Assembly: GCA_021799595.1 (NCBI GenBank)
Contig: JAJZAF010000005.1
Coordinates: 1-49,636 of the forward strand
Direction of reading: 5' to 3'
DNA from: a bacterium
GTDB taxonomy: Bacteria > Patescibacteriota > Saccharimonadia > Saccharimonadales > UBA4665
Length of the DNA stretch: 49,636 nucleotides
The position numbers and the translations under genes were made by a program. Shown one piece after another: positions 9,437 to 28,622 of this stretch. Numbering within the stretch: the first letter of the stretch is position 1; every line of letters starts with the position of its first letter. Below the pieces are notes generated by a model, which was given only the letters and a program-made list of their open reading frames with translations, made no database searches and was not told the DNA's origin.

Positions 9437-9442
9437 ATGACT

Positions 9443-10522
9443 ATGCTTATAGCAGTCATTCTTTTGGGGGTAACAGCGGTTGTGTTGTTTAGTTTGCTGG
9501 TACTTCAATCAAAAAGTAAGCGAGGAAGTAGTGATGCTGCACTCCTGATCAAACAAGATCTTACCCAACTCAGCAATGATATCGGTAAGCTTAAGGAAGG
9601 GTTGCAGGAACAGCTTGGCGAACGCTTTGAGAAGAACCAAGCAATGATGATGAACAGTCTACAAAAACAATTTTCTGAAAGCAGCAAGATTATTACTGAG
9701 GTGACCAAAAATTTAACAGAGTTAAAAGAATCAAATAAACAGGTCATGAATATTACTGATGAGTTGAAAGTCTTGCAAAATGTGCTTGGTAACCCAAAAC
9801 AACGTGGCGTGCTTGGAGAGTACTTGCTGAACCAATTGCTTGAGAATGTCCTACCGCCAGATCGTTTTGAGTTGCAGCATCGCTTCAAGGATGGAGAGAT
9901 CGTCGATGCAGTCATCTTTTTAGACAAGCACAAAATGTTGCCAGTCGATAGTAAATTCAGTGTTGAGAACTATAATCGCATTATTGAGGCTAAGGATAAG
10001 CAGACTAAAGAAACGATTGTTCGCCAGTTTAAAGCTGATCTGAAAAATAGGATTGATGAAACGGCAAAATATATCCGGACAGATGAAGGTACCATGGATT
10101 TTGCTTTCATGTTTATCCCATCGGAAGCAATTTATTACGATTTGCTCGTGAACAAGGTAGGGACCAGCCAGACTAGTGCGCGCGATCTCATCGAGTATGC
10201 CTTTCGATCAAAAAAAGTTATTATTGTCAGCCCGACATCCTTCATGGCGTACCTGCAGACAGTCTTACAAGGACTTCGCGGGTTGCAGATTGAAGAACAG
10301 GCTAAAGAAATTCAGCTTAGGGTTGGACGGCTTGGCAATCACATTGCTGCTTACGAAACCTACATGCAGAAGCTTGGTAGCTCACTTGGCGTGACTGTTG
10401 GCCATTACAATACGGCCCATAAGGAGTTAAAAAAGATAGACAAAGATGTCATCAAGATTTCTAATAACTCTCCAGGAGTAGAACCGCTTCTGTTGGACCG
10501 ACCTATGACAGATAATGATTAA
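9443..10522 (+). CDS. rmuC: RmuC-family DNA recombination protein
   Basis: A 359-residue RmuC protein, a family with a PD-(D/E)XK-like nuclease core that limits recombination at inverted repeats. A membrane-like N-terminal segment (LIAVILLGVTAVVLFSLLVL) is followed by a coiled coil (about 30-110) and the RmuC core with GNPKQRGVLGEYLLNQLLE, DAVIFLDKHKMLPVDSKF and FMFIPSEAIYYDLL. Full length. The second ATG is favoured by the promoter spacing. The stop overlaps that of leuA within a TTAA tetranucleotide, and no terminator separates the two converging genes. Confidence 0.93.
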   Translation: MLIAVILLGVTAVVLFSLLVLQSKSKRGSSDAALLIKQDLTQLSNDIGKLKEGLQEQLGERFEKNQAMMMNSLQKQFSESSKIITEVTKNLTELKESNKQVMNITDELKVLQNVLGNPKQRGVLGEYLLNQLLENVLPPDRFELQHRFKDGEIVDAVIFLDKHKMLPVDSKFSVENYNRIIEAKDKQTKETIVRQFKADLKNRIDETAKYIRTDEGTMDFAFMFIPSEAIYYDLLVNKVGTSQTSARDLIEYAFRSKKVIIVSPTSFMAYLQTVLQGLRGLQIEEQAKEIQLRVGRLGNHIAAYETYMQKLGSSLGVTVGHYNTAHKELKKIDKDVIKISNNSPGVEPLLLDRPMTDND

Positions 10523-12075
10523 CATGAACTATTGGCTGACTTATTATCTGTAGCGGCTTGATGGAGAGCGTCCAGATATGCCCAGGCTGATGCTTCAAGA
10601 GTATCTGTTGAAATACTGCGGCCAATAATATTCTGCCCATTTACATTCAATATGACGCGTACTTCACCGACTGCCTCTTGGCCGCTACTCATTGGAGTAA
10701 GGGTATAACACATCAGCTCATAATCGGTATCAGTGGCGCGGCTGATAGCAGTAAATAACGCATCAATTGGTCCATCAAGCTCATGATAATGTGATGGGTC
10801 GGCAATAATGGTTTGCTCCGATCCGCCGGGTAAAACTACTCGAACAGTGGCCTGTTTGCTGTCAGACGAGGATTCAACGCCAAAGTGACTGAGGCGATAA
10901 GAACATTCTTCACGTCTTTGTACATCTTCGGCAATCAGCAGCATAAGCTCGGGGGATACACCTTTAGTATGATCTGCGATCTCTTTAAATCGCTTAAAAA
11001 CCTGCCTAAAATAGTTTGGCTCAAAAGCGTCATGTTGTTCGAGAAAATTACGAACTGCGTGTCGGCCGGAATGTTTGCCCAGAGCAATATTTGGGTCGTC
11101 AAAACCGAGCGTTGCTGGATCGATAATCTCGTACGTGGTACGTTCTTTCAATACTCCATCTTGATGTATGCCCGACTCGTGCTTAAAGGCATTGCTACCA
11201 ACAATAGCTTTATTTGGCTGGATAACATATCCCGTTAGCCGTGACACCAGACGGCTTGTCCGAGCGATTTCAGATAAAATAACACTAGTACTCAATCCAT
11301 AATGGTCGGCCCGTGTCTTAATCGCGACCACAATCTCTTCGAGGGCAGTATTGCCGGCTCGTTCGCCGATACCATTGATGGTTCCTTCAATCTGTCTGGC
11401 ACCTTGCCTCACGCCTTCTAAAGAATTGGCTACAGCAAGACCTAAATCGTTATGGCAGTGAACTGAGAGTACTACTTTATGAAGGTCAGGCACTCGTTCA
11501 TACAGACGTTGTATAAGCTCACCGTATTCGTGTGGCTGGGCAGAGCCGACAGTGTCGGGAATGTTGATAGTAGTAGCTCCTTCATCAAGAGCTATCTGAA
11601 TCACTTCAGCTGTAAAGTCTATATTTGCTCGAGTCGCATCCATAGGTGAGAACTGAACATCATCAACAAGTGATCTGGCTATGGCAACAGCTGCTCGAGC
11701 CTGGCCTTTAACATCTTCTTCACTAGCGTGCAGTTGATGAGTCATGTGAATCTCAGACGTAGATATGAAGGTATGAATTCTGGGGTGTTCAGAATCTCGA
11801 ATTGAATCATAGGCTCTTTGAATGTCCTCGCTTTGGGTTCTTGCTAAAGCGCAGATAGCTGGTCCTTCAACCTCTCGTGCTATAGCTTGCACTGCTGCAA
11901 AGTCCCCCTCTGATGTAATTGGAAAACCAGCCTCTATAATATCTACCCCAAAACGATTAAGCTGATTGGCAATTTCTAGTTTCTCAGCGGGACTCAAAGC
12001 AATGCGGGGAGACTGTTCTCCATCTCGCAAAGTGGTGTCAAAGATTTTAACGTGATTGTCTATAGCTTCACTCAT
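10519..12075 (-). CDS. leuA: 2-isopropylmalate synthase
   Basis: A 518-residue LeuA that condenses acetyl-CoA with 2-oxoisovalerate, the first committed step of leucine synthesis. The HMGL-like TIM barrel carries [11 protein letters not shown] near residue 13, [13 protein letters not shown] (metal-binding histidines), [14 protein letters not shown] and the [14 protein letters not shown] region. The C-terminal LeuA dimerisation/allosteric domain (about 395-505) is intact, which favours true isopropylmalate synthase over homocitrate or citramalate synthase. It has a good Shine-Dalgarno (AAGGAG) 5 nt upstream and a leucine attenuator in its leader. No leuBCD or ilv genes lie in this window, so the rest of the pathway must be elsewhere or missing. 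Confidence 0.95.
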
Positions 12076-12100
12076 AACTTCTCCTTTATACTTGGTTAGA

Positions 12101-12132
12101 AAATAAAAACAGGCTTCTTGGTTGAAGCCTGT
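12101..12132 (-). terminator. Attenuator terminator of the leuA leader
   Basis: On the minus strand ACAGGCTTC (12124-12132) and GAAGCCTGT (12109-12117) form a perfect 9-bp stem with loop AACCAA, followed by a T-rich run (12101-12108). It stands between the leader peptide and leuA and would stop transcription when leucine is plentiful. Confidence 0.9.
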
Positions 12133-12191
12133 AGGTTTTGGCTGTACTAAGGAGCGCGTTAACGTTTGTGTTGCGCTTTGGCTTCAACCAA
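12118..12191 (-). promoter_or_regulatory. Antiterminator pairing of the leuA attenuator
   Basis: TTGGTTGAAGCC in leader codons 23-26 (12180-12191) is a perfect 12-base complement of GGCTTCAACCAA (12118-12129), which makes up most of the 5' arm and all of the loop of the terminator. The same leader segment can instead pair with GCTTCA just upstream (codons 20-22). This is the 1:2 / 2:3 / 3:4 arrangement of a translation-controlled attenuator. Confidence 0.85.
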
Positions 12192-12257
12192 ACTGAAGCA
12201 CAGCCCACTAAGGCCGAGGAGGAGTTGGTTGAATTGCTTCTTTACATGTATCGCCAT
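12159..12257 (-). CDS. leuL: Leucine-rich leader peptide of leuA
   Basis: A 32-codon ORF from ATG 12257 to TAA 12159-12161, encoding a peptide with six leucines between codons 12 and 23: three consecutive CTC codons, then CTT, CTG and TTG (segment QLLLGLSGLCFSL). Ribosome stalling on these codons would cover the first attenuator segment and let codons 23-26 pair with the terminator, so leuA is transcribed when Leu-tRNA is scarce. A promoter with TAGCCT ending 8 nt before the ATG makes the peptide mRNA leaderless. The symbol is by analogy to enterobacterial leuL; the peptide sequence is not homologous. Confidence 0.85.
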   Translation of the reverse strand: MAIHVKKQFNQLLLGLSGLCFSLVEAKAQHKR

Positions 12258-12264
12258 GAGGTCT

Positions 12265-12294
12265 AGGCTAGCATAGATATTTTGTGTGTGTCAA
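12265..12294 (-). promoter_or_regulatory. Promoter TTGACA-18-TAGCCT for the leuA leader
   Basis: A perfect -35 TTGACA (12289-12294), an 18-nt spacer and -10 TAGCCT (12265-12270) end 8 nt before the leader-peptide ATG. Confidence 0.7.
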
Positions 12295-12325
12295 AAGTTT
12301 TTTCAGAGAAAATAATGAAGTAAAA

Positions 12326-13684
12326 TCATGAGCTTTCTTTAGGTGTTTTTGAGGGGACTTTATCCATTTTCAGGAGGTCAATAGCAAGAGCGGCTGTCCA
12401 AGAAAAGTGATTGGCACCAGCCGGTTCACCGGTGTAAGGATCGAAGTATTCATAAAAATCAGATTCTTTGACCATGGTTAGCGTACTTTGTTTGAGTTTT
12501 TCAGCCTGTTCATGAAAGCCATAACGCCCTAACCCATCTATAATGAGCCAGTTAATGTTAACCCAAGTTGGGCCTTGCCAATATAGTTTTGGCCGAAACC
12601 AAGGAGAGTCTACGGGTACGCTAGGGACAGGAAAAGGTGGGCCAAAGTGGTGCCGGCTCTCTATAAGTTCAACTAAGTGGGCAGCTCGCTCCTTGGAGAT
12701 GGTACCAGCATATAGAGGCAGCAGCGTGGCCACACTCGGTGTTTTTAGGAGACGGTGGGTGATAAAGTCTCGTGAATAGTATTGGGCGGTTGAGGGGTCC
12801 CAAAGCTCGTCGAGTGCTCTCTCGGTTTTTTTCATACTTTTTTCGAGCTCGGCAGGCAGATCTACTTGCAACGATTTGGCAATATCTCTGAGGTGTTTAT
12901 TGGCACGAATAAATATACAGTTAAAGTTAAGATCTTCAATGGCAAAAAGAGAATGATCGAGAATTTTATTGATATCGAAGGCCTTGCGACGCAGACGAAG
13001 CTGGATGTTAAACATAGCCAACGATTCTATAGCTGAGAAACGTTGATCCATTGGCACGGAGCGCGTATCGCGTCGAAAAAAATTAACCACTGAACTTAAA
13101 TGCCATTTCTCAATCAGGCGGATCCAGAGCGGCATAAGATGTTCGTGCAGTTCAGAAATCCAGGGCGGAGTATTGTCTAAACCGGTTTCCCACGGATGGA
13201 TCTGCAGTACAAGGCCTTCACGATGCGGGTCGCGTTCCGTATACAGCCAACTGTGGTACCGTACCAGGGCCGGATACATCATGCTGTACCAAAGCCGACG
13301 CTCGGACCAAGACAGCTTTTCACCAACACGTACCACAGCTTCTGCTAGCATCGGGGGCTGGGTGATGCCGGTGGTGGTAACGTCGTTTGGGGCAAAGGGA
13401 TTAAGCCAACTTCGCCAGAGATTGCGATCAGTCCGGTAAATAGGATCGTCGCGAAAAATAATATTTGGCAACATGCCATTATGCCATTGCCCTCGCAATA
13501 AACTAACGAGTTCGGTTTTGGCTCGTTCTTCATCAATATGCCTAAGCCCGATGGCAATAAAACAGCTATCCCATAACCACTGGTGAGGGTAAAGGTTGTG
13601 GGCTGGCTGCGTGTAATTTCCCCTGTCGTTTAAGGTGAGAATGTCGGCGGCTCTTTTCAGTAAGTTCGGAGTTTTGTCGCTCAT
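12326..13684 (-). CDS. GH63-like glycoside hydrolase (mannosylglycerate hydrolase-type (alpha/alpha)6 barrel)
   Basis: A 452-residue enzyme resembling mannosylglycerate/glucosylglycerate hydrolases and trehalase-like GH63 proteins. Recognisable blocks are WLWDSCF (36-42), LRGQWHNGMLPNI, HPWETGLDNTP (163-173), YWQGPTWVNINW near 365, and FYEYFDPYTGEPAGANHFSW near 412-431. The catalytic acid/base pair is expected among D39, the acid of the HPWETG block and the E of the final block. No signal peptide is seen, so a cytoplasmic substrate such as a glycosylated compatible solute or a short oligosaccharide is inferred. It starts leaderless from a TATACT box. It lies downstream of yajQ on the same strand but has its own promoter. 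Confidence 0.88.
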   Translation of the reverse strand: MSDKTPNLLKRAADILTLNDRGNYTQPAHNLYPHQWLWDSCFIAIGLRHIDEERAKTELVSLLRGQWHNGMLPNIIFRDDPIYRTDRNLWRSWLNPFAPNDVTTTGITQPPMLAEAVVRVGEKLSWSERRLWYSMMYPALVRYHSWLYTERDPHREGLVLQIHPWETGLDNTPPWISELHEHLMPLWIRLIEKWHLSSVVNFFRRDTRSVPMDQRFSAIESLAMFNIQLRLRRKAFDINKILDHSLFAIEDLNFNCIFIRANKHLRDIAKSLQVDLPAELEKSMKKTERALDELWDPSTAQYYSRDFITHRLLKTPSVATLLPLYAGTISKERAAHLVELIESRHHFGPPFPVPSVPVDSPWFRPKLYWQGPTWVNINWLIIDGLGRYGFHEQAEKLKQSTLTMVKESDFYEYFDPYTGEPAGANHFSWTAALAIDLLKMDKVPSKTPKESS

Positions 13685-13690
13685 AGACTT

Positions 13691-13696
13691 AGTATA
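13691..13696 (-). promoter_or_regulatory. -10 box TATACT for the GH63-like gene
   Basis: Minus-strand TATACT whose end is 7 nt from the ATG at 13684, predicting a leaderless mRNA inside the 30-bp gap after yajQ. Confidence 0.6.
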
Positions 13697-13714
13697 GCGC
13701 GGACGGTGACGGTT

Positions 13715-14212
13715 TTAACGGTAGTTTGTAAACTGCAGCGGGAAATCGAAGTCAACCGTTTTTAGGAGACCGATAACAGACTGCAAATCATTTTTGCTGG
13801 GACTTGTTACCCGTATGCTATCACCTTGAATAGATGTTTTAATTCTAGGGAATTGAGAATTAATTTGTTTAGTAATCTGTTTAGCCTGTTCGTGGTTCAA
13901 ACCGTGTTTAAGAGGCACCTTTTTTATGGCTTTCAGATTACTCTCTTCGATACCCTGACTAGTATCAAGTAATTTCTGACTTTGAGAGCGGGTAGCTAAT
14001 TTTTTTCTGACTATGTCAATAATGGCCTCAATTTGCCACTCTCCTGCTCCGGTAATGAGAAGTGTGGTTTTATCGCTGCCATTCCAGTCAATAGCGGCGG
14101 GGGTATTCTTGAAGTCATAGCGGTTCATAATTTCTCGACGCGTTTGATCGAACACGTTATTTATTTCAGCTTTGTCGTAATCACTGACGATATCAAAAGA
14201 AAAAACAGACAT
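13715..14212 (-). CDS. yajQ: YajQ-family nucleotide-binding protein
   Basis: A 165-residue YajQ/UPF0234 protein with two ferredoxin-like domains. The start MSVFSFDIVSDYDKAEINNV, the RREIMNRYDFKN block and the late VTSPSKNDLQSVIGLLK block are all family hallmarks. Members bind nucleotides, including cyclic di-GMP in some Gammaproteobacteria; whether this one does is unknown. Full length. A TACTAT box ends 8 nt before the ATG. It is divergent from pheS across a 61-bp intergenic region. Confidence 0.93.
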   Translation of the reverse strand: MSVFSFDIVSDYDKAEINNVFDQTRREIMNRYDFKNTPAAIDWNGSDKTTLLITGAGEWQIEAIIDIVRKKLATRSQSQKLLDTSQGIEESNLKAIKKVPLKHGLNHEQAKQITKQINSQFPRIKTSIQGDSIRVTSPSKNDLQSVIGLLKTVDFDFPLQFTNYR

Positions 14213-26794: not shown

Positions 26795-27652
26795 GTGGCT
26801 AACAGTAAGCGATCAGTTCATGAGCTTAAAGATCTAGCGAATGATATTCGTGAAGATATTATCCGTATGCTTGAACACGCCGGTAGTGGTCACAGTGCCG
26901 GACCGCTCGGACTAGCAGACATCTTCACGGCATTGTATTTCGATATCCTCAAACATGACCCCAAGCGCCCGGATTGGCCAGAGCGGGACATCCTGTTACT
27001 CAGTAATGGTCATTGTGTGCCGGTGCGGTATGCAACGATGGCTCGAGCTGGTTATTTTGATCGATCAGAACTCATGACGCTTCGACAGTTTGGTTCACGC
27101 TTGCAAGGACACCCAGAGAGACTCAGATTGCCAGGATTAGAAAATACTTCCGGACCGCTCGGCTGTGGTCTTAGTCAAGCTTGCGGTATGTCGCTCGCCA
27201 TGAAGATGGATGACCAACACCGCTGGATATATGTGGTTATGGGTGATGGCGAACAAGATGAAGGCAATGTCTGGGAAGCGGCCATGCTAGCTGGCAAATA
27301 CAAACTCAGTAACATTATTGCTATTACGGATCGCAACAATATTCAAATTGACGGACCGACAGAGACAGTCATGCCGCTGGAGGATCTGAAGGCCAAGTGG
27401 CAGGCGTTCGGCTGGCATGTGCTCGAGATCGATGGCAATGATATTGAGGCAGTCATTGAAGCTTGCACCATGGGTCGGGCGGTCACCGAGCAACCAGTCA
27501 TGATCATTGCTTATACAGTACCAGGCAAAGGCGTGGATTTTATGGAGTATGACTTTCATTGGCACGGTAAACCGCCTGACCATGAACAGGCGGTGAAGGC
27601 ATTGCACGAGCTGAGAACACTCGGTGGAAAGATACGGAGCGAGCATGAGTGA
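26795..27652 (+). CDS. tktN: Transketolase, N-terminal (TPP-binding) subunit
   Basis: A 285-residue protein equal to the first half of transketolase. It binds thiamine diphosphate through GDGEQDEGNVWEA (about 150-162) and has the GHSAGPLGLADIF and NTSGPLGCGLSQACGM blocks. It starts at GTG 26795 with a G-rich Shine-Dalgarno region upstream. The C-terminal half is a separate gene overlapping by eight bases. Split transketolases are common in archaea, Thermotoga-like bacteria and many CPR genomes. The symbol is descriptive. Confidence 0.93.
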   Translation: MANSKRSVHELKDLANDIREDIIRMLEHAGSGHSAGPLGLADIFTALYFDILKHDPKRPDWPERDILLLSNGHCVPVRYATMARAGYFDRSELMTLRQFGSRLQGHPERLRLPGLENTSGPLGCGLSQACGMSLAMKMDDQHRWIYVVMGDGEQDEGNVWEAAMLAGKYKLSNIIAITDRNNIQIDGPTETVMPLEDLKAKWQAFGWHVLEIDGNDIEAVIEACTMGRAVTEQPVMIIAYTVPGKGVDFMEYDFHWHGKPPDHEQAVKALHELRTLGGKIRSEHE

Positions 27653-28622
27653 GCTTGGTGTCTTATCGGTTACCGATAACCTAGAGAAGGAGCCGATCAG
27701 AAAAGGTTTCGGTAAAGGTTTATTGGCGGCTGGTCAAGCAAATACTGCTGTCGTGGCAGCCTGCGCCGATTTGACTGAGTCCACCCAAATGAATCTGTTT
27801 AAAGAGGCTTTCCCGGAACGGTTCGTTGAAATAGGGGTGGCTGAACAAAATCTCGTGACAGTTGCCTCTGGACTGGCGGCGATGGGCAAAATTCCGTTTG
27901 TATCTTCATATGCAGCTTTCAGCCCTGGTCGGAACTGGGAGCAAATTCGAACTACTATTTGTCTCAATGATCGTCCAGTCAAGCTAGTCGGGTCTCATGC
28001 TGGGGTAAGTGTCGGTCCTGACGGAGCGACACACCAAATGCTTGAGGATTTAGGCCTGATGCGTGTGTTGCCAAACATGGTTGTCATTGCCCCTTGTGAT
28101 AGTGTCGAAGCGGCCAAAGCCACGCAGGCTATGGCAGTACATCCGCAGCCGAACTATATTCGCCTAGCCCGGGAAGCGACGCCAATTATAACTTCAGCCA
28201 ACACACCGTTTCGTATTGGAGCAGCATATGTCTACAGAGAAGGCAGTGATATCAGTCTTTTTGCTACTGGGACCATGACATATCAGGCGCTTAAGGCCGC
28301 TGAAAAACTGAAAGACGATGGCATTTATGCTGAGGTTGTTCATGTGCCGACTATTAAGCCGCTTGATGTGGCTACTATCGTCCAAAGTCTCAAGAAGACA
28401 GGTGCCGCTATAACGGTTGAGGAGGGGCAAATCAATGGTGGTCTCGGCAGCGCTATAGCGGAAACGATTGCCGAAAATCACCCGGTACCCCTCATTCGTA
28501 TTGGTATGGCTGATCGTTTCGGTGAGTCTGGTCAACCCGAGGAGCTATTAGATCATTTCGGCTTAAATGCCAAGCATATTCGTTTGGCTGCTCAGCATAT
28601 CCTTAAGGGGAAAACTCGATAA
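27645..28622 (+). CDS. tktC: Transketolase, C-terminal (pyrimidine-binding) subunit
   Basis: A 325-residue partner of the preceding gene, containing the pyrimidine-binding domain (RFVEIGVAEQNLVTVASGLA with the catalytic Glu) and the C-terminal transketolase domain (AAITVEEGQINGGLGSAIAE). The two halves form a full transketolase exchanging two-carbon units between sugar phosphates. ATG 27645 is preceded by GGAG; a more upstream in-frame ATG (27624) lies inside tktN. The operon is followed by about 740 bp of degraded mobile-element sequence. Confidence 0.93.
   Translation: MSELGVLSVTDNLEKEPIRKGFGKGLLAAGQANTAVVAACADLTESTQMNLFKEAFPERFVEIGVAEQNLVTVASGLAAMGKIPFVSSYAAFSPGRNWEQIRTTICLNDRPVKLVGSHAGVSVGPDGATHQMLEDLGLMRVLPNMVVIAPCDSVEAAKATQAMAVHPQPNYIRLAREATPIITSANTPFRIGAAYVYREGSDISLFATGTMTYQALKAAEKLKDDGIYAEVVHVPTIKPLDVATIVQSLKKTGAAITVEEGQINGGLGSAIAETIAENHPVPLIRIGMADRFGESGQPEELLDHFGLNAKHIRLAAQHILKGKTR

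Follow-up and report, generated by a model that had tools for sequence, protein, structure and literature searches.

A leucine-codon leader precedes leuA

The stretch of DNA analysed here, which we call the window, comprises 49,636 nucleotides (nt) of contig JAJZAF010000005.1. Its source genome (0.90 Mb, 99.35% complete) belongs to the order Saccharimonadales, which agrees with the patescibacterial origin proposed by the first-pass annotation, a reading of the letters alone. The minus strand of the window carries leuA (10519 to 12075), encoding a 2-isopropylmalate synthase of 518 amino acids (aa) with HMGL-like, HCS_D2 and LeuA_dimer domains. Its score exceeds the cut-offs of two NCBIfam LeuA equivalogs, NF002086 (651.5 bits, cut-off 532) and TIGR00973 (622.2 bits, cut-off 598.7), and the ATG at 12075 is preceded by AAAGGAG. 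Upstream of the gene lies a leader that is very likely a leucine-responsive, ribosome-mediated transcription attenuator, raising expression under leucine shortage.

All parts of the leader lie on the minus strand. Read directly from the sequence, a promoter is formed by TTGACA (12294-12289) and TAGCCT (12270-12265) with an 18-nt spacer, and its spacing and position are identical in a genome of the same genus (G001). It is followed by an open reading frame (ORF) of 32 codons, MAIHVKKQFNQLLLGLSGLCFSLVEAKAQHKR, from ATG at 12257 to TAA at 12159, whose frame and Leu run are conserved in relatives. The ORF has six Leu codons, namely the control codons CTC CTC CTC (codons 12-14, 12224-12216) and then CTT, CTG and TTG (12212-12210, 12203-12201 and 12191-12189). 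Codons 23-26, TTGGTTGAAGCC (12191-12180), form segment 2 or strand b, the antiterminator strand. They show perfect 12-nt complementarity to segment 3 or strand b', GGCTTCAACCAA (12129-12118), which provides the 5' arm and loop of an intrinsic terminator (12103 to 12132). This terminator has a 9-bp stem ACAGGCTTC/GAAGCCTGT, a 6-nt loop (aaccaa) and a T-rich tail.

Strand b has two further candidate partners. One is strand d, GCTTCA (12199-12194), with which it forms a competing GCTTCA/TGAAGC hairpin. The other is segment 1 in leader codons 6-11 (12225 to 12240), made up of GAAGCA (12240-12235) and TTCAACCAA (12233-12225) and complementary to segment 2 and its neighbour; in the minimum-energy fold of the window leader, TTCAACCAA is paired with segment 2. 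In addition, strand a, GGGCTGTGC (12198 to 12206), forms 8 bp in the window through its part GGCTGTGC (12205-12198) with strand a', GTACAGCC (12147-12140). A small hairpin, AGCGC...GCGCT (12153 to 12177), lies between b and a', and by eye most other sites have hairpins of other sequence at this position.

The first-pass annotation had already named the promoter (12294-12265), the six-leucine ORF (12257-12159), the 12-nt complement in codons 23-26, the terminator with its T-rich run ahead of leuA (12132-12105) and the upstream competing hairpin, and each was recovered as described. It had overlooked the helix GGCTGTGC/GTACAGCC, which crosses the antiterminator helix, the complementarity of the 5' codons (TTCAACCAA) to the antiterminator strand, and the position of the leader start only 7 nt past the -10 element.

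The leader family is confined to one order

LeuA-like genes are scarce in Saccharimonadales, being found in 17 of 393 genomes. Within the first 60 relatives, the regions upstream of LeuA-like genes contained the same leader, and nine such leaders were used to build a first covariance model. With this model the element was detected in 73 of the 393 genomes of the order, and 79 sites were analysed. With a second model (R2), built from the 79 sites, the class gave matches in 57 of 393 genomes, with a single marginal match outside the order, and the phylum in 3 of 380, none of them outside it; the E-values of both models are rough. A pattern scan for the leader core in 84,980 species returned 51 stretches, 48 of which were matched by covariance model. 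The other three (L107, L135 and L136, from Rhizobiales, Rhodospirillales and Caldilineales) had no R2 match, their number is close to chance expectation, and they were rejected. Two sites labelled Chlamydiae (L114) and Parcubacteria (L127) carry the Saccharibacteria leader, and their organism labels are probably wrong. No Rfam 15 family matched the leader above its gathering score or at a relaxed threshold. On the evidence of these searches, the element family extends across the order and, as far as this form of the sequence goes, is restricted to it.

Of the 17 genomes in the order that have a LeuA-like match, 15 carry the leader ahead of that gene. In a sixteenth, G047, the architecture is the same and the bases differ. 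No such leader was found upstream of the LeuA-like match in the seventeenth, G096 (L173), a weak match (24% identity) that is probably another enzyme of the superfamily.

Compensatory changes support two crossing helices

The first-pass annotation had proposed comparing leuA upstream regions, looking for compensatory changes in the antiterminator helix and folding the leader. Relatives retain the terminator and alternative pairings as well as the leader ORF with its Leu codons, and the window leader folds 4.2 standard deviations below shuffles. The pairing tests used an alignment of the 79 sites made without fitting to structure. Helix a-a' (GGGCTGTGC with GCACAGCCC) was paired in 96.5% of cases over the 79 sequences, with two-sided changes at 7 of 9 pairs, and helix b-b' (GGTTGAAGCC with GGCTTCAACC) in 92.1%, with two-sided changes at 8 of 10 pairs. 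Taken together, 15 of the 19 pairs showed two-sided changes, a count matched by none of 500 shuffles, and sliding the partners against each other lowered pairing from 94% to 27-42%. The competing d-b hairpin covaried as well (96.8% paired, two-sided changes at 5 of 6 pairs).

The strands follow each other as a, b, a', b', so the helices cross and would make up a pseudoknot. In G047, the strands CGCTACGTTTG, GCCTAGATC, CAAACGTAGCG and GATCTAGGC have all different letters and the same crossing order, which was found in 0 of 300 shuffles. With compensatory changes preserving the antiterminator as well as the helix that crosses it, a pseudoknot of a-a' and b-b' is the most likely ON form, and these helices would form together as a whole. 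The antiterminator of the first-pass annotation is thus better drawn as a pseudoknot, while its proposal of a leucine attenuator is supported by the comparison.

The alternative, OFF pairings are also widespread. At 76 of the 79 sites, compared with 4% of shuffled segments, there is a hairpin that overlaps b' with its 5' arm or loop and is followed by a T-run. The duplex of the 5' leader codons with segment 2 had a mean energy of -15.7 kcal/mol over the 79 sites and -10.0 kcal/mol for shuffled codons. The leader stops 0-18 nt after b everywhere except at two weak sites (L070 and L092), where an earlier stop occurs in the frame read.

Control codons change with the downstream gene

To assign the downstream genes, we searched for similarity to reference proteins and checked the main ones with NCBIfam and Pfam. 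Of the 79 sites, 15 stand before LeuA-like genes and 18 before or near ilvA, ilvB or ridA; at 29, a short ORF separates the leader from rplJ-rplL further downstream, and 17 are others. We defined the control region as the nine codons ahead of strand a. This region contains 5.0 Leu and 0.07 Ile+Val codons on average in LeuA-type leaders (n=15), all of which are Leu-dominated and nearly free of Ile and Val, and 2.7 Leu and 2.8 Ile+Val codons in ilvA/ilvB/ridA-type leaders (n=18). The difference is significant (Mann-Whitney, p=4.6e-6), a value that is generous for related sequences. Both types occur close together in a single genome, G033, where the control region reads LALALLGL before LeuA and IVIIILGR before IlvB. 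The codons track the downstream gene and therefore fit ribosome-mediated attenuation rather than a ligand-binding RNA.

The composition of the products was also compared with the codons of the leader. Leucine makes up 4.9% of the LeuA-like proteins and 5.3% of the first short ORFs, compared with 9.4% in the genes of the window; a low leucine content is expected for proteins made during leucine shortage. A link between a high leader Leu count and low leucine in the next ORF is weakly supported (rho -0.33, p=0.011), and the correlation with serine is stronger. For isoleucine, leader Ile and next-ORF Ile correlate at rho -0.44 (p=0.0004), the strongest of the 20 amino acids.

Short ORFs of 40-220 aa with good ribosome-binding sites (RBS), about 60 in all, lie some 30 nt past the terminator arm, among them those at L018, L030, L031, L037 and L032-L064, and many contain 0-3% leucine. 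Clustering sorted them into a family of 8, two families of 3, four pairs and 38 singletons. The 8-member family (L032, L034, L036, L040, L051, L052, L059 and L064) mostly has a C-terminal VIPYxGTEP-like motif. At the 29 rplJ-rplL sites (e.g. L018, L032, L051, L074 and L094), the leader and short ORF lie 0.4-1.9 kb upstream of rplJ-rplL. At L051, a ribosomal L10 leader (RF00557) lies between the two, and at L069, L071 and L089 an ilvA-like gene takes the place between leader and rplJ-rplL. As judged from gene order, the leader/rplJ-rplL arrangement is a conserved locus with changing cargo.

A model of attenuation and its alternatives

The comparison of related sites supports the leader itself, the pairings a-a', b-b' and d-b, the terminator and the match of codon to gene. 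Over the 79 sites, the best promoter typically ends 7-10 nt ahead of the leader start codon (7 nt in the window), so transcription should begin at this codon or a few bases from it, and the leader is probably translated from a leaderless transcript. From these features we infer how the ribosome would stall, in which order the RNA would fold and how starvation would allow read-through. RNA polymerase would start at or beside the leader ATG, and a ribosome would load on the leaderless end. When leucyl-tRNA is ample, the ribosome would pass the Leu codons to the stop just beyond strand b, which would be covered or re-paired with segment 1 or GCTTCA; b' would then join the terminator, and transcription would halt ahead of leuA. 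When leucyl-tRNA is scarce, the ribosome would stall on CTC CTC CTC..CTT..CTG, covering segment 1 and leaving a and b free. The a-a' and b-b' pseudoknot would keep b' from the terminator, so that leuA would be transcribed. The overall scheme would be one of 1:2, 2:3 and 3:4 pairing, with the pseudoknot as the 2:3 state.

Other explanations of the leader were weighed against this model. A regulatory protein or a metabolite could bind the RNA, the pseudoknot being the binding fold and the short ORF incidental. The pseudoknot is indeed well conserved, and the authors who described the actinobacterial LEU element, a leader upstream of leuA, preferred a protein partner for it (PMC1262725). However, where the downstream gene differs, Leu codons give way to Ile and Val codons over an unchanged RNA core, which a common ligand does not explain, and G047 retains both helices without any conserved core letters. 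Because the codons swap with the gene, we consider such a binding site improbable. Conservation of the peptide GLCF.MVEA over many families would also fit an arrest peptide whose own sequence stalls the ribosome, perhaps with free leucine as cofactor. Yet this stretch is conserved at third codon positions too and encodes the RNA strands a, d and b. Beyond Leu, conservation of the peptide mirrors RNA pairing, since it is altered where b and d are altered (L051, L064, L094 and L002) and takes the forms TEA, AGA and VGA, and LSALRLHA at L002, where the pairing covaries. As the peptide changes along with the RNA pairing, an arrest peptide is hardly to be expected here.

Control of leuA could instead be mainly translational, through occlusion of its RBS, with the T-run hairpin secondary. 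The terminator is near the leuA RBS, the T-run after b' is absent in G047, and the LEU element has been drawn with a base stem on the RBS (PMC1262725). On the other side stand the T-run terminators at 76 of 79 sites and the lack of a conserved pairing between the Leu run and the RBS. At LeuA-type sites the longest perfect duplex between the two averaged 5.2 nt, against 4.3 nt in shuffles, and was not conserved; at the other sites it was 4.4-4.6 nt, against 4.1-4.3 nt; and in the window it was 5 nt, equalled by 35% of shuffles. Mainly translational control therefore seems very unlikely to us, although some control of translation may act in addition to termination.

Several observations weigh against ribosome-mediated attenuation or temper its support. 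The terminator scan was negative at L068, L070 and L075. The leader stops of the window and G001 are set 18 nt downstream of b and do not adjoin it. For leuA leaders of Actinobacteria, the outcome of mutations is reported not to have fitted classical attenuation (PMC1262725, citing Craster 1999). The sequences share descent and are less independent than the shuffle counts and the Mann-Whitney test imply. Finally, a-a' was part of the model used to collect the sites, so the collection is biased towards that helix; neither b-b' nor d-b was entered there as paired.

The switch probably controls isolated enzymes rather than a leucine pathway

Neither leuC nor ilvC was found by searches of the window genome, and the same searches were positive in 14 of 14 control genomes. 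Among leader-bearing genomes tested, leuC was absent in 12 of 13 (the window genome included) and ilvC in all but one of 15, G047 being the only exception in both cases. The cell is thus apparently unable to make leucine. The first-pass annotation had placed a leucine attenuator ahead of leuA, and the switch is supported; because leuC and ilvC are absent, however, leucine synthesis by the cell itself is probably not what it governs. As far as gene content tells, the regulon is one of isolated first-step enzymes and short leucine-poor ORFs, with no leucine pathway. Pfam detected no regulatory domain in the LeuA-like proteins of L020, L026 and L058 or the IlvA-like proteins of L069, L071 and L089.

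The leuA gene itself appears to have been exchanged. Relative to the window, the neighbours in G001 share 67% (YajQ), 81% (glycoside hydrolase) and 89% (RmuC) identity and the leader is the same, whereas the LeuA proteins are only 30% identical. When window positions 9437-14212 were compared with L108 (G001) and L131 (G020), neighbours were 67-89% identical and LeuA 27-30%. Since neighbours and leader are the same and LeuA is divergent, leuA was evidently replaced in place behind a kept leader, in either the window or G001. Our guess is that the isolated first-step enzymes may serve the exchange of intermediates with the host.

A broader reading, which we offer only tentatively and hold to be possible rather than probable, is that the element is a new RNA family, a pseudoknotted attenuator with repeatedly swapped control codons, and that in symbionts unable to make branched-chain amino acids it governs a regulon for their starvation. 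Its outputs would be isolated enzymes of first committed steps (LeuA, IlvA and IlvB), some without a feedback domain, and short proteins poor in the sensed amino acid, serving exchange with or influence on the host rather than self-sufficiency. The setting is unexpected, a leucine attenuator in a cell apparently unable to make leucine. The family names genes that Saccharibacteria probably switch on under leucine or isoleucine starvation, and makes it testable why reduced epibionts retain single enzymes from lost pathways.

Other features of the window

The window contains a second amino-acid-related RNA switch, a SAM-I riboswitch (RF00162, 50.6 bits, above the gathering score) at 2142-2248 on the plus strand, directly before metK at 2299. 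Two adjacent plus-strand genes (26795-27652 and 27624-28622) resemble, by eye, the N- and C-terminal halves of transketolase.

Comparison with known attenuators

We found no published description of ribosome-mediated attenuation in Patescibacteria in the open-access literature. In the present case, the pairings have comparative support, codon swaps across one order act as a natural experiment, and a pseudoknot would serve as antiterminator. The window family resembles the enterobacterial Leu leader and the ilvBNC leader of C. glutamicum in its control codons, its mutually exclusive antiterminator and terminator and its 1:2, 2:3 and 3:4 pairing. Like the C. glutamicum leader (Morbach 2000, cited in PMC4046766), the leader of the window seems to be translated without an RBS. 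The family differs from both in its pseudoknotted antiterminator, in controlling single enzymes and in its occurrence in a cell without the pathway.

A complete biosynthetic pathway is the usual setting of trp- and leu-type attenuators and is unnecessary for the mechanism. The branched-chain system of S. aureus, from a different phylum, belongs to a complete biosynthetic operon. It includes an attenuator peptide comparable to the one described here, a Leu-rich leader controlling branched-chain amino acid genes (PMC5794164).

The closest likeness in architecture is to the actinobacterial LEU element (Seliverstov et al. 2005, PMC1262725), which has a Leu leader, a pseudoknot and an alternative hairpin upstream of leuA. 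Its base stem joins the Leu run with the leuA RBS, and its mode of regulation was left open, with a protein partner favoured (PMC1262725). In both elements, a leader ORF containing a Leu codon run lies ahead of leuA, and a pseudoknot and alternative hairpin share one stretch. Two leuA-like loci on Streptomyces plasmids (L177 and L178) were tried as LEU representatives and rejected as other paralogues without a model match. In contrast to the LEU element, the window family has no conserved base stem, carries an intrinsic terminator at 76 of 79 sites and extends to ilvA and ilvB with matching codons. We did not file the window element as a LEU member because the base stem is unconserved here and the terminators are conserved. 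By comparison with the published description, it may nevertheless work like the LEU element or share ancestry with it. When the LEU element was described in 2005, it had no agreed mechanism, and a look-alike with clear terminators and matching codons suggests one.
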